From a virus: a DNA stretch of 44,038 nucleotides. The DNA is taken from positions 1-44,038 of the IMG/VR virus record IMGVR_UViG_3300048996_000059, one strand, 5' to 3'. The notes beneath the pieces were generated by a model. The model did not search any database. It saw nothing but the letters and a program-made list of their open reading frames with translations, and was not told the origin of the DNA. Shown here one piece after another: positions 24,428 to 30,001 of the stretch (position 1 is its first letter; each line of letters starts with the position of its first letter). A program made the position numbers and the translations under genes.

Positions 24428-27283
24428 CTACTCCATGTCCCTGCGAAGCCGCTTCAGAACACCTATCAACTCGGGCTGCAACCTGATATAGCCGCGGGTG
24501 CTGCGTCGTACCATCCGGAGCTTAATCAGCTCACCGATGGCGTCCTGGCTCTGGTCCCGGCCCAGTGCACCGAACTCCTCCAGGTCACGCACTCGGAATT
24601 GCGTATCGGTCATGACCTGGAACATCGCCTTGGCGACGTTTTCGTTTGCCACCAACCACTTGCGGACCTTGCGTTGGTTCTGCTCGGCCTGCTTGCGGTT
24701 GCTAATCTCCTCTCGACTGTGCTCGGCATACCCGAAGGTCGGGGCACCGTACAGCGCATCCAGAATGCTAACGGCGCACCGCACGTGCTCTCGGGTTACC
24801 AGCAGCTGTTCACCGTCGGGACTGCTGAACAACCGTGCGGCCACCGCCACGGCCATGCGAGCCAGTTTGATACGCACGTTGGCTGCCTGCACCAGGGGCG
24901 GCTCCTCAACGTACCTGGCCCCCAGCGCCATGGCCTGGTCAAGCACCAGGGCCTCCGTGCCCGGCTCCCACAGCACCTGGTCGGCGCGGCGGCTCCAGGC
25001 CCAGGTCACCAGCGTCGAGCACCTGCGGCGGTTGAAGCGATGCTTGACCACCGGAGGGGCCTGAGTGTTGATGCTGTCCGAGTTGACGTCGGCACTGGCC
25101 GCCGCCATGGCGAAGTCGAACCGGGCGATGTCCTCCGGGTTCGGCACCAGCCCTTCAATGGCGTCGATGGCCCCGCGGCTCATGCTGGTCAGCGGGCGGC
25201 CATCCACCGGATTGCTAATCCAGATGAGCCTGGTGCGCGCCTTGGTCTGGCTGCTGACCACCTTGGTGATCTGAGCCACCCCAGACGAACGCACCGCACT
25301 CATCTGTTCCATCACGCCCTTGTCCTTGATACCGCTCACCTCGTCGAGGATGACCAACCGCCTATCCTGCAACGGAATGGTGCCCCAGGTGATGACCCAG
25401 TTGTTACCCAGCTGCTGAGCCCCGCCCACCAGACCGGCCAACGTGGCGCCCTCGCAGGACTTCAGGATGCCCGACTGGTAGTGCTCGGTGAGGCGCAGGG
25501 CGGCCTCACTCTTGCCGGTACGGGTGTCCCCCATGACGAGCAGCTCCAGCCAACCCTTGCCGACGTTCTTGCCCATGAACGGGAAGTCGAGCAAGCTGTG
25601 CCACACCAGGTCGTAGGCGATATGCAGGTCGGCACGGCCGTGGATGTGCGTCACGTTCGCGGCCAGGTCCCGGGCGATGGCCTTGAGCTTGTCGAAGGCT
25701 CGCTGACCCTCCTTGGGCTGGAAGGCTTGCAGACGACGGCGGATGACGTCGCTCATGACGAAGCTGTCAATACTGGTCTTGGTGGGCTCGCACTGCCAGC
25801 TCTGGAACACGCTCTTGCCGGTCTTCGGGTCGGTCACACTGGCCCCCTGAAACCGCATGACCTGGTTCACCGGCGTGTTGTACGGGCCGACGTTGTATGT
25901 GCGACGGCTGGCCTGGATATTGCCGTCACTGCCAGGGTCTTCCGCGTTCGGTAGCAGCACCAGCTCCTCGACGGACCAGCGCCTGTCTACGTGCATCTCA
26001 GCATACGGGCAGTTTCGTTGGACCCCGTGCTCCTTTCGGATAAGAGCATCCGATTCCTCTACCGGCCGGTCAATCATGGCCATCAACAGCGGATCATCGG
26101 CCCGCAGTTCAACAGCGGTCTGGCCGCCACTGTCGTTGTTCAAGCAGCTCCGGCACTTGCTGCCCCACTTGCCGGGCTCGCACAGAATATCCAACTGGCG
26201 AGGGAGAAGGTAAGTGCTCTGGGAACGGCCACCAACCGTTGCCGTCACCTGCAATAGCTTTCCCGCGTACTCTGCGTCCAGGCTCTTCTCAACGCCAACC
26301 ACAATAGGATCGCCGTTCTGCATCACACGGCTTAGCTTGCGGTCCCCGAACGGCGGAGTGGCCTCCATGAGGGCCTTCAGGTCTCGCTTACCCAGCCCCT
26401 GCGCCACGAAGAAGTCCGTCAAGTCCTGCTTAGCAGCCACCGGAAGCTTCATGACAAACACCGCCGCTGCGACCTTCTTCAGGTGGTTGGCCACCTTCCG
26501 AGCGCCGCTCTCTCCGGCCTGATCATTGTCGTAGGCGATGTACACCGTCTTACCAGTGAAGGCATTGCTCCACTGCTCTTGCCAGGTGCCCGCCCCAGCG
26601 GTGGCGGTCACAGTGGCGAAGCCGTACTGCTCCCCGATGAGGGCGTCCAGCTCGCCCTCGCAGAGCAGCACCACCTCGCTTTGCGCGATGTTGTCCATCA
26701 TGTACAAATTGGCCGAGCCATACCCGGGCCAGTTCAGCATCTTGTCCCGGATGGACTCAGGCTTGTACCGGCGCACGTTCACCAATGCACCGTCCGGCCC
26801 GTACACCGGAATCATGTAGCGGTCCCCGTCATACCCGAGCATGCGCTTGCGAAGCGTTTCGTCGTTGAGCCCTCGCTTGTCATGCAAGGGCCTGAGGAGA
26901 ATGCTGCTCCGCATCAGGCGGTCATGCCACTTGCGCACCTGCCCCTCGTCGGGCAACGGCGTCACTGGCTTGCCGCCGCGGCTCTTGGCACTGTTGATGC
27001 TCCGCACGTTGTCAGCACTGCGAGGGGAGGGGCGGGCGGCGGGACGCTCGCCTACAAAGTCCGCGTCGTCCTTAACGGCCTCGTACAGGTCCTTGATGCG
27101 CATACCGCCGCACTGGCTGAAGCAGTTGAACACCCCCTTGCCGAAGTTGAAGCTGGCTGACGCTGTCTTACTTCCGCCCTTCCTGGGCTTCTCGTGTGAT
27201 GGGCAGAACGCCTTCGTCTCGCCATCTGCCTGCTCTCGAACCAGGTATGCGCCGAAGACCTTCCGCCAGTCGCGGCTAGGCAT
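24428..27283 (-). CDS. TOPRIM primase fused to MCM-type AAA+ helicase
   Basis: A 951-residue replication protein. N-terminal zinc site: C27, H30, C54, C58 (KAFCPSHEKP, VFNCFSQCGG). TOPRIM core: LLCEGELDAL (Glu209) and IAYDNDQAGES (D252, D254). A second cysteine-bearing beta region follows (DILCEPGKWGSKCRSCLN), resembling the zinc/OB part of MCM. The AAA+ motor has Walker A VMGDTRTGKSEAA (Lys591), Walker B LVILDEVSG (D647, E648), sensor-like LIWISNPVDG and an arginine-finger-like IARFDFAM. A C-terminal winged-helix-like part ends the protein. One chain could thus prime and unwind. The start has only a weak ribosome site and overlaps the preceding stop. Confidence 0.9.
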   Translation of the reverse strand: MPSRDWRKVFGAYLVREQADGETKAFCPSHEKPRKGGSKTASASFNFGKGVFNCFSQCGGMRIKDLYEAVKDDADFVGERPAARPSPRSADNVRSINSAKSRGGKPVTPLPDEGQVRKWHDRLMRSSILLRPLHDKRGLNDETLRKRMLGYDGDRYMIPVYGPDGALVNVRRYKPESIRDKMLNWPGYGSANLYMMDNIAQSEVVLLCEGELDALIGEQYGFATVTATAGAGTWQEQWSNAFTGKTVYIAYDNDQAGESGARKVANHLKKVAAAVFVMKLPVAAKQDLTDFFVAQGLGKRDLKALMEATPPFGDRKLSRVMQNGDPIVVGVEKSLDAEYAGKLLQVTATVGGRSQSTYLLPRQLDILCEPGKWGSKCRSCLNNDSGGQTAVELRADDPLLMAMIDRPVEESDALIRKEHGVQRNCPYAEMHVDRRWSVEELVLLPNAEDPGSDGNIQASRRTYNVGPYNTPVNQVMRFQGASVTDPKTGKSVFQSWQCEPTKTSIDSFVMSDVIRRRLQAFQPKEGQRAFDKLKAIARDLAANVTHIHGRADLHIAYDLVWHSLLDFPFMGKNVGKGWLELLVMGDTRTGKSEAALRLTEHYQSGILKSCEGATLAGLVGGAQQLGNNWVITWGTIPLQDRRLVILDEVSGIKDKGVMEQMSAVRSSGVAQITKVVSSQTKARTRLIWISNPVDGRPLTSMSRGAIDAIEGLVPNPEDIARFDFAMAAASADVNSDSINTQAPPVVKHRFNRRRCSTLVTWAWSRRADQVLWEPGTEALVLDQAMALGARYVEEPPLVQAANVRIKLARMAVAVAARLFSSPDGEQLLVTREHVRCAVSILDALYGAPTFGYAEHSREEISNRKQAEQNQRKVRKWLVANENVAKAMFQVMTDTQFRVRDLEEFGALGRDQSQDAIGELIKLRMVRRSTRGYIRLQPELIGVLKRLRRDME

Positions 27284-27479
27284 CCTTCACCATTGCGCCG
27301 ACGATGACTGTGTACATCGCTGGATAGGAGTAATCCTCGTGCGTGTGGTCGCAATGCACGGACTTATGCCTCAGCTCGTGCTGTTCGAGACGCTCTGTTA
27401 GCCCACCTTCCAGCGGCTCTGACCCAGGGTGCCTGCGGTGCCAGTGCTGGTTCATGGCACGCTTCTCTTCGCGGCTCAT
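27276..27479 (-). CDS. histidine-rich small protein, 67 aa
   Basis: The start is the ATG of an ATGA overlap with the ribbon-helix-helix-like gene. The protein has many histidines and one cysteine (NQHWHRRHPG, EQHELRHKSVHCDHTHED), so metal binding is possible. It is followed directly by the primase-helicase gene, overlapping its start by eight bases, and may assist it. No family recognised. Confidence 0.7.
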   Translation of the reverse strand: MSREEKRAMNQHWHRRHPGSEPLEGGLTERLEQHELRHKSVHCDHTHEDYSYPAMYTVIVGAMVKDA

Positions 27480-27817
27480 CGAGCCACCTCGAAGATGCTC
27501 TGCTCGCCAGCCTCGGCACACTCCTTTGCGTACACCTCGTAAGCGTCTTCTATGATTGTCTCGGCGTCGGGCCCCAGGCGGCGACGGAGGCCCTCCCATA
27601 TGAGCGCGCGCAGTTCCTGGCTGACGGCCTGGGCCCGAAGGCCAGCCCGATAGCTGGCCCAGACACACAGTGCGTACCGCACAGGTGGCGTCAGATTAAC
27701 CAGAACTCGGTCATTGCCCCTCTTGGCCGTCCGGCGCCTCACGTACAGCTGGGCGCTCCGGCCGCGACGAAGACCCCGTCGCAGTCTCGCCTCGTATTTA
27801 TCCCGTCCAGCACTCAT
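27476..27817 (-). CDS. putative ribbon-helix-helix DNA-binding protein
   Basis: The 113-residue protein has a strongly basic N-terminus (RRGLRRGRSAQLYVRRRTAK). A region with ribbon-helix-helix character follows: strand DRVLVNLTPPVRYAL, then helices around YRAGLRAQAVSQELRALIWE (about 38-80). An acidic C-terminal tail ends it. It is the first gene after the 510-base non-coding region with its inverted repeats, so it may bind those repeats as a replication initiator or autorepressor. The ATG at 27817 has GAGAGGG upstream. The fold is a pattern-based guess. Confidence 0.6.
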   Translation of the reverse strand: MSAGRDKYEARLRRGLRRGRSAQLYVRRRTAKRGNDRVLVNLTPPVRYALCVWASYRAGLRAQAVSQELRALIWEGLRRRLGPDAETIIEDAYEVYAKECAEAGEQSIFEVAR

Positions 27818-28005
27818 GGCACCCTCTCTTTTACTTACTTTACTATCTCCTCTCCTTTTCTCGAAAATGAGATATAGAGAAGAGGTAGGCTCTACCTGGG
27901 CTGGCAGTAGGGCAGGCCCACACGCTACCGCACCGCAACCCATTGTGCGTGCTCACTTTCACACGCCATTCGTCATATGCACCGGTGAGACGTATTGGTC
28001 ACAAT

Positions 28006-28022
28006 GCAAGTGATACCACCCG
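28006..28022. repeat. left arm of 17-base inverted repeat
   Basis: GCAAGTGATACCACCCG, exactly complementary to 28138-28154. The arms enclose 115 bases whose centre carries a second, perfect 10-base stem. Confidence 0.95.
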
Positions 28023-28066
28023 TGGAGAGCGAGGGGTTTTGGGTTTTTCCTAGGCGCGTCCTGAGC

Positions 28067-28092
28067 GCCCCTACGCATGCACGCGTAGGGGC
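28067..28092. repeat. central 10-base-stem hairpin
   Basis: GCCCCTACGC (28067-28076) pairs perfectly with 28083-28092 around the loop ATGCAC. Its midpoint (28079.5) coincides within a base with the midpoint of the flanking 17-base arms (28080). No U-run follows on either strand. Confidence 0.9.
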
Positions 28093-28137
28093 CCAACTTC
28101 TTTACCCCCTATAGCTTGCCGGGGGTGCTTCACTCAC

Positions 28138-28154
28138 CGGGTGGTATCACTTGC
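28138..28154. repeat. right arm of 17-base inverted repeat
   Basis: CGGGTGGTATCACTTGC, exact complement of 28006-28022. Could be a binding site for a dimeric regulator or initiator. Confidence 0.95.
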
Positions 28155-28282
28155 CCGCCCGCCCAGCCTCCTCTTCGCAGACGCCCGAACATTGGCTCTG
28201 CGATGGGCTACCCCCACCGGGCTAGCCCAAAGGGGTGGTTGAGGCCGCAGCGTCGGTTCTAGGGCACCGCAATCGGGCAGTC

Positions 28283-28313
28283 AAAAGGGCGGCACCCTGG
28301 CCGGGTACCGCCC
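28283..28313 (-). terminator. Rho-independent terminator
   Basis: The RNA of the minus strand folds into an 11-base stem with one mismatch (28287-28297 with 28303-28313) and a 5-base loop, followed at once by UUUU. It lies 15 bases after the stop of the acidic protein gene and ends the recombination operon before the control region. Confidence 0.8.
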
Positions 28314-28327
28314 CTCGGGCTCGACAG

Positions 28328-29173
28328 TTACTTGCGCTTGGCCTTCTTCGACTTGGCGTCGGTGATCGGGGTCACCTTGGAAGCGGCCTTCTTCGAGGCG
28401 GGCTTCGACGCGGCCTTGGCGGGGGTCGCCTTCTTGCCCTTCTTCGCGGGCGGCTCCGGCTCCTCCTCCTCGTCCTCGTCGTCGTCTTCCTCCTCGTCCT
28501 CCTCCTCCTCGTCTTCGTCGCTTTCGTCGTCGTCTTCCTCGTCCGTGTCCTCGTCGTCCTCCTCGTCGTCGCCTTCCTCGTCCTCTTCCGCGTCATCCGC
28601 GTCCTCGAACTCGTCGTCGACGTCGGTGTCTTCCTCGTCCTCGTCGTCATCTTCAGCGGCTTTCAGAGCCGCCTTCCGCGCGGCCATCTTGGCCTCGTCG
28701 AGGGCGATGATTTTGCCCAGGTCGAAGCTGGGGTCGTCGTCGTCGCTGTCCCGGTCGCGCTGCACCCGGCCCCGCACGAGCTTCGCCTTCTTGATGTACT
28801 TGGAGACCGAGTCCTCGTCGGACATGTCCAGGCGCACCTTCGCGGCCTTGGTGCCCTTGACGGCGTTGCCGCCCGCCAGCGCGAGCATGATCTCATCGGT
28901 CTTCCACTTGGTGGTGTCGAGGTTGCTGTACACCGTGCGGGTCCAGCCCTCGTAGTTCACGTCGTCCCGGAGGGAGAAGATCCACTTGAAGCCCTCGGCA
29001 CCCGCCTGGCTGGTGTGCTGGCCTGCGTTCACCAGCTCGAAGGTGTAGAAGCCGGGACGGGGGTCGTCCCCGTCGTACGCCTCCCGCACCTCCACGTTGT
29101 TCAGGTCGATCTCGATGACGCCGCTGGCGCTCTTCTTGCTCTTCTTACCCTTGGGTCCCTTGCTGCTGACCAC
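28328..29173 (-). CDS. acidic-tailed protein, possible ssDNA-binding
   Basis: A 281-residue protein. Residues about 15-160 form a globular, beta-rich domain (IEIDLNNVEVREAYDGDDPR, GFYTFELVNAGQHTS, GFKWIFSLRDD), like the DUF669/phage ssDNA-binding proteins that accompany Sak4-type ATPases and exonucleases. About residues 173-245 are almost only Asp and Glu. The last 35 are Lys/Ala-rich. The acidic tail recalls single-strand-binding protein tails that recruit partners, but is far longer. The GTG start has GGAGG eight bases upstream. A terminator follows. Confidence 0.65.
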   Translation of the reverse strand: MVSSKGPKGKKSKKSASGVIEIDLNNVEVREAYDGDDPRPGFYTFELVNAGQHTSQAGAEGFKWIFSLRDDVNYEGWTRTVYSNLDTTKWKTDEIMLALAGGNAVKGTKAAKVRLDMSDEDSVSKYIKKAKLVRGRVQRDRDSDDDDPSFDLGKIIALDEAKMAARKAALKAAEDDDEDEEDTDVDDEFEDADDAEEDEEGDDEEDDEDTDEEDDDESDEDEEEEDEEEDDDEDEEEEPEPPAKKGKKATPAKAASKPASKKAASKVTPITDAKSKKAKRK

Positions 29174-29176
29174 GTG

Positions 29177-30001
29177 CTACTCCTCCTCGGCTTTGGCCGT
29201 GCGCTTAGAGCGCTTGGCCGTTTTCAGGGGTACCCCAGTGGTGGCCACTTTTGCCATTCGTGGGATGGTGGGGCTGCTGACGTACGGTACGAGGGCCGGG
29301 TAGCGGCTCTTGGCCACCCAGAAGTCGCTCCCCTCCACGTACAGCCTGCGGCCCCTGGTAACGCCGTCGCGCTTCACCTCGCGGAGCAGGCCCACCAGGC
29401 TTACGCTGGCACAGATGCGGGAGCTGGTATCCCCGCGCTTTGGGCTACCGATGAGCGGCATGAGCTGGCTGCGCTCCTCCTCGGTTTCCGAGTCGAAGCT
29501 CTCGATGCGCATGGCGTTGGCCGTGTAGATGACGTTGATGGGCAAGCGGTTGAACTCCGCCACGTGCCGCTTCATCATGTTCCACACGATGGGGTAGTCG
29601 CCCAACGCTGGCTTGTACTCGGGGCGCTTCTTGTTGCGCTTGCGCCCCTCGCCCATGGTGTACGCCCAGGCGTGCTCCTCGAGCGTGCTCAGGTTGTCAC
29701 TGGTCACCCAGTCGTAGTCCGTACAGCCAGAACCGAGCTGGAAATACGCCAGCGCGTCGAGGTACTCCATCCAGGTCTCGATTTGCCACTCGTCGGCGGT
29801 GCTGCCCAGCGCACGGGCGCTCTCGGTACCCTCGATGTCGTACGACAGGATGAGGCCCCGTGGTGCGGTACCGGCCAGCACCGTCTTGCCTACGCCCGGT
29901 TCGCTGTACACCAGCCAGTTCCGGTAGACGGGCCGTGCACCGCCCTGCAGAGCCACGATGGCACTCGGGCGCTTCGGCGGGCGCCTGCGAGGGGTGACCA
30001 T
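29177..30001 (-). CDS. AAA ATPase, Sak4-like recombination protein
   Basis: A 274-residue RecA-fold ATPase. Walker A is VYSEPGVGKTVLAG (SEPGVGKT, 33-40). LSYDIEGTESA and DYDWVTSDNLSTLEE follow, the latter resembling the Walker B strand of the AAA_24/Sak4 group. INVIYTANAMRIE would be the sensor strand. The C-terminus is basic. In phages, Sak4-type ATPases work with an ssDNA-binding protein and an exonuclease in annealing-type recombination, and all three types appear to be encoded here. The start is the ATG of a TGATG overlap. Confidence 0.82.
   Translation of the reverse strand: MVTPRRRPPKRPSAIVALQGGARPVYRNWLVYSEPGVGKTVLAGTAPRGLILSYDIEGTESARALGSTADEWQIETWMEYLDALAYFQLGSGCTDYDWVTSDNLSTLEEHAWAYTMGEGRKRNKKRPEYKPALGDYPIVWNMMKRHVAEFNRLPINVIYTANAMRIESFDSETEEERSQLMPLIGSPKRGDTSSRICASVSLVGLLREVKRDGVTRGRRLYVEGSDFWVAKSRYPALVPYVSSPTIPRMAKVATTGVPLKTAKRSKRTAKAEEE

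Follow-up and report, generated by a model that had tools for sequence, protein, structure and literature searches.

Iteron-type replication origins of phages and plasmids, such as those of lambda, P4 and RSF1010, consist of non-coding repeats beside replication genes. A different kind of origin is found in the prophages of cluster A mycobacteriophages, in which it is RNA-based, lies beside parABS and expresses an RNA (PMC7157519). The pRN1-family plasmids of Sulfolobus carry a stem-loop of about 100 nt with low sequence conservation and high structural conservation, the integrity of which is needed for replication (PMC4234260). This stem-loop adjoins a terminator hairpin as well as an operon that encodes a small repressor and a primase-helicase, and the authors proposed the same for Bordetella phage BIP-1 (PMC4234260). 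It is the nearest published parallel to the element described here.

The DNA analyzed here (the window, 44,038 nucleotides) is the record of an uncultured phage in IMG/VR (IMGVR_UViG_3300048996_000059), with nearly all genes on the minus strand. The order of transcription is an SNF2-type helicase, an exonuclease, a Sak4/RecA-like protein, an acidic-tailed protein, a non-coding gap, a small protein, a very small protein and a primase-helicase. The gap (27818–28327, 510 nt) separates two operons, and was among the largest intergenic stretches in a crude gene call that misses low-GC3 genes. The features of the region are the following.

24428–27283, minus strand: primase-helicase, with a TOPRIM primase and an MCM-like P-loop domain
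27476–27817, minus strand: small protein with a ribbon-helix-helix-like sequence pattern, the first gene after the gap
28006–28022: outer arm GCAAGTGATACCACCCG, nearer the small-protein/primase operon, a perfect match to its partner arm
28067–28092: apical hairpin GCCCCTACGC-GTGCAT-GCGTAGGGGC, its core 16 nt of alternating pyrimidine and purine
28104–28127: intra-dyad segment, ACCCCC/GGGGGT arms around TATAGCTTGCC
28138–28154: outer arm, exact reverse complement of GCAAGTGATACCACCCG, nearer the upstream terminator
28283–28313, minus strand: intrinsic-terminator-like hairpin plus TTTT, predicted by folding to close the upstream operon
28328–29173, minus strand: acidic-tailed protein gene, upstream of the gap, positional counterpart of the DUF669 proteins in Bacillus-group relatives
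29177–30001, minus strand: Sak4/RecA-like recombinase

The primase-helicase gave matches to TOPRIM primases, and weaker but consistent ones to the MCM P-loop domain (PF00493, 23.5 bits against a cut-off of 23.3; MCM2 structures, E 2.7e-5). A fusion of a TOPRIM (DnaG-like) primase with an MCM-like P-loop domain was also present in Weizmannia phage Youna2. The acidic tail encoded by gene 28328–29173 is of low complexity; in this position, Youna2 and Bacillus phage BSP7 have genes for DUF669 proteins.

A preliminary description had reported a perfect 17-bp inverted repeat enclosing, concentrically, a hairpin with a perfect 10-bp stem. All of this was confirmed. The repeat matched perfectly at 28006–28022 (plus) and 28138–28154 (minus), the hairpin stem at 28067–28092 was perfect over 10 bp, and the two centres (28080.0 and 28079.5) lay half a base apart. 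When lengthened to 22 nt, the outer arms were 91% complementary. The 17-bp pair was the longest perfect inverted repeat with a span of up to 300 nt in the window, the runner-up being 13 bp. This length was reached in none of 200 dinucleotide shuffles of the 510-nt gap, in which the maximum was 12.

No further copy of the arm 17-mer was found in the window, even with three mismatches allowed, and an exact 17-mer scan of viral contigs gave three single matches, about the chance expectation. The block contained no direct-repeat array of the iteron kind. The idea that each arm was itself a palindromic operator was dropped, because palindromes internal to the arms were not above chance level (P 0.24).

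In relatives, a GGAGCTAYCCCC-type motif, recognized by eye, is the apparent counterpart of the segment at 28104–28127. The hairpin cores of the window and its relatives are alternating pyrimidine/purine runs, of up to 32 nt in locus L011. Such a run was often the longest one in the 1.5 kb preceding the primase. Genome-wide, on the other hand, it was not the longest, or did not come close to being so, in four of six records, and for this reason Z-DNA is not claimed.

The gene order Sak4, acidic/DUF669 gene, gap, optional DNA-binding gene and primase was shared by Krampusvirus, Wollypog, about 24 uncultured actinophage-type loci and the Bacillus-group phages Youna2 and BSP7. The gaps measured 431–496 nt in Krampusvirus, Wollypog and TinyMiny, all of the same order, and 484 and 311 nt in Youna2 and BSP7, respectively, whose primases are about 30% identical. 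A profile search of viral contigs yielded 38 loci; a scan of genome contigs gave only distant relatives (21–35% identity). One locus (L048, G004:C1:44073-44894) had a Sak4-like match with one in-frame TAG stop. The closest relative was contig G001, with 77–78% identity in Sak4 and primase. Its gap aligned with that of the window on either side of the dyad, and the dyad itself was altered. Many relatives had hairpin cores of the type CYYACGCG..CGCGTRAGG in the same position.

The arms had been expected to be conserved in relatives. Their sequence diverged; what was often kept was the match between the two arms of one phage. For this comparison, 24 window-type loci were centred by hand on the hairpin core, and the pairing of the flanks was scored with G-U and A-C treated alike. 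A stricter stem scoring was used, as an earlier permissive scoring had over-extended. The mean own-arm score was 22.5, versus 15.8 (sd 0.72) when partners were permuted among phages (0/20,000). Permutation within related subgroups gave a mean of 17.8 (0/20,000), the direct-repeat orientation 15.4, and a centre shifted by 260–400 nt 14.3–14.7. Centring by eye may favour symmetric positions; the permutation retains the same positions. The dyad symmetry appears to be under selection.

Individually, 11 of the 24 loci (the window, L012, L013, L017, L018, L023, L025, L034, L038, L039 and L041) fell in the 5% tail of cross-phage scores, with L026 at 0.054. The remaining 13 had no individually significant outer stem, and G001, with nine pairs, was among them. 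Conserved pairing without conserved sequence, the pattern of the pRN1 type, was seen at the population level and individually in 11 of 24 loci.

A miniature transposon, an attachment site or a protelomerase site would carry terminal inverted repeats like those around these 149 bp. A protelomerase core is also resembled by some hairpin cores, for example TACGCGCGTA in L034/L039. However, target duplication was not seen, the syntenic place was fixed, the arms were diverging, and the hairpin centre in the window was not palindromic. ResT-TelK (PF16684) and tyrosine integrase (PF00589) gave no match in seven, possibly incomplete, records. This explanation is largely refuted and hardly credible.

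A structured non-coding RNA from the gene strand, with the arms as its basal helix, would be expected to fold strongly and to show co-varying arms. The folding was indeed strong (z about −5.8 for the block and −6.8 for the gap), and the arms co-varied. In a transcribed helix, however, G-U on the RNA strand should be tolerated more than A-C, and no such excess was seen: there were 8 G-U versus 9 A-C in the significant outer stems and 11 versus 12 in the hairpins, that is, 19 versus 21 in total. The block also folded about equally well on both strands, and no Rfam family matched the element. Such an RNA is improbable. A gene-strand energy preference in an earlier fold comparison was unsupported by the symmetric wobble count. 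Because G-U and A-C were about equally frequent and the two strands folded about equally well, the symmetry seems to be kept in DNA and not in RNA. Selection on DNA, whether double-stranded or either single strand, seems favoured by these counts, which are small.

Plain termination had been considered unlikely, and this view was upheld. No T-run adjoins the hairpin of the window, and the terminator-like hairpin of the gap (28313–28287, minus strand, followed by TTTT at 28286–28283) lies outside the reported block. Similar hairpins were found in relatives directly after the same (acidic-protein) gene. Many relatives did have an A-tract before the apical hairpin and a T-tract after it, as expected if the element were a bidirectional terminator or an insulator between the two operons. 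Nevertheless, a separate terminator-like hairpin already ends the upstream operon, and matching arms 115 bp apart are unnecessary for termination. A role of this kind is quite improbable, even more so than that of an RNA.

The 27476–27817 product had been described as ribbon-helix-helix-like. This label comes from a sequence pattern, and Pfam and PDB searches gave no match. One AF2 model (pLDDT 67) showed a beta-alpha-alpha arrangement, and the strand was absent from the alignment-based model. We treat the product as a putative DNA-binding protein. Most window-type loci had a gene of this type after the gap, and it evolved faster than the primase (40–67% versus 82–91% identity in subgroup B). 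In L023 of subgroup B, LTANMK takes the place of IGTNLK in the presumed strand, and the arms are unrelated to the rest; this is one case. L034, L039 and L026 kept the element with the small gene absent from the gap, and for this reason the small protein is not clearly the arm binder.

These observations bear on the possibility that the arms are an operator pair, on which a phage repressor loops the DNA and controls the small-protein and primase operon, and not an origin. The frequent presence after the gap of a small, fast-evolving putative DNA-binding gene favours it, and so does L023, the most different small protein of subgroup B, with its unrelated arms. A TTGACT/TATAAT-like promoter sequence, recognized by reading the sequence, lies within the dyads of BSP7 and Youna2, which suits an operator pair and fits an origin equally. 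On the other hand, the gene is about 190 bp or more downstream of the arms in the window, and a consensus promoter was not found at this place. The loci that keep the element without the small gene count against a repressor, and so does the length of the arm matches (17–26 bp), which exceeds that of most operators. Operators alone are a rather unlikely explanation, although an origin and an operator pair need not exclude each other, and these two functions lead the other readings.

Other architectures were seen at the same place. BSP7 and Youna2 had perfect arm pairs of 16 and 25 bp, respectively (each 0/200 shuffles), and additional inverted repeats shared the centre of the Youna2 pair. Krampus and TinyMiny had no long perfect arm pair; their gap contained seven CACAAT/ATTGTG copies in dyad-symmetric arrangement, and the neighbouring 20 kb had none. 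Repeats of the CCCACAAT type formed an inverted array in the Krampusvirus gap (L006:8682-8791 and L008:8649-8791). In L040, CCTCAGT-type repeats replaced those of the Krampusvirus type. In the distant relatives vB_BboS-125 and ctIqW946, the gap was about 115 nt long and lacked a dyad.

We interpreted the block as a DNA-level dyad element in a replication-control gap, probably serving as a replication origin or its core (probability roughly 0.5). This was suggested by the syntenic gap, the self-matching but diverging arms, the related hairpin core and the lack of strand bias. The fusion of the primase to an MCM-like helicase domain, the parallel with pRN1 and the CACAAT repeats of Krampus also count for an origin. 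Against it stand the lack of a GC-skew switch at the dyad, the 13 of 24 loci without a significant stem and the Krampus gaps without a long pair, and also the promoter-like sequence inside the BSP7 and Youna2 dyads and the dyad-free gaps of ctIqW946 and vB_BboS-125. The preliminary description had proposed an origin or a master operator. This is still the best reading; synteny, the co-variation of the arms and a published analogue support it, short of proof.

At such an origin, a phage DNA-binding protein, either the 27476–27817 product or a DNA-binding part of the primase-MCM protein, would bind both arms symmetrically. The arms would fold back, or be bridged, across the hairpin. The primase-MCM helicase would then be loaded at the dyad, and unwinding and priming would follow in both directions.

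Among the known systems, the iteron-type origins resemble the CACAAT repeats of the Krampusvirus relatives at the same place, whereas in the window direct iterons are absent and a single inverted pair with a hairpin is present. Like the cluster A origins, the element is a non-coding, here putative, replication region in actinobacteriophages; unlike them, it has no RNA strand bias, and a ParA search for the window phage gave no match. Like the pRN1 stem-loop, the element has a terminator-like hairpin and a primase-helicase gene as neighbours. A small gene, for a putative DNA-binding protein, usually goes with it. However, the element lies upstream of the primase, whereas the pRN1 stem-loop lies downstream of the replication gene; its arms are longer and nested; and the enzyme has a TOPRIM and an MCM-like domain in place of the archaeal-type (archaeo-eukaryotic) primase and SF3 helicase. 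Because position, primase and helicase type differ, we do not class the element as a member of the pRN1 type, although it may work like the pRN1 stem-loop.

It is possible, as a tentative proposal, that the element represents an undescribed class of origin in actinobacteriophages and Bacillus-group phages: a fast-changing, self-matching nested dyad at which a TOPRIM-MCM protein would be loaded, with arms and binder co-evolving. If this is true, a large group of actinobacteriophages, together with related Bacillus phages, would have an origin that can be tested, and there would be a hint at the way in which a bacterial virus loads an MCM-like helicase that is fused to a primase of the bacterial type. 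It would also broaden the concept, proposed for pRN1, of an origin defined by structure and not by sequence.
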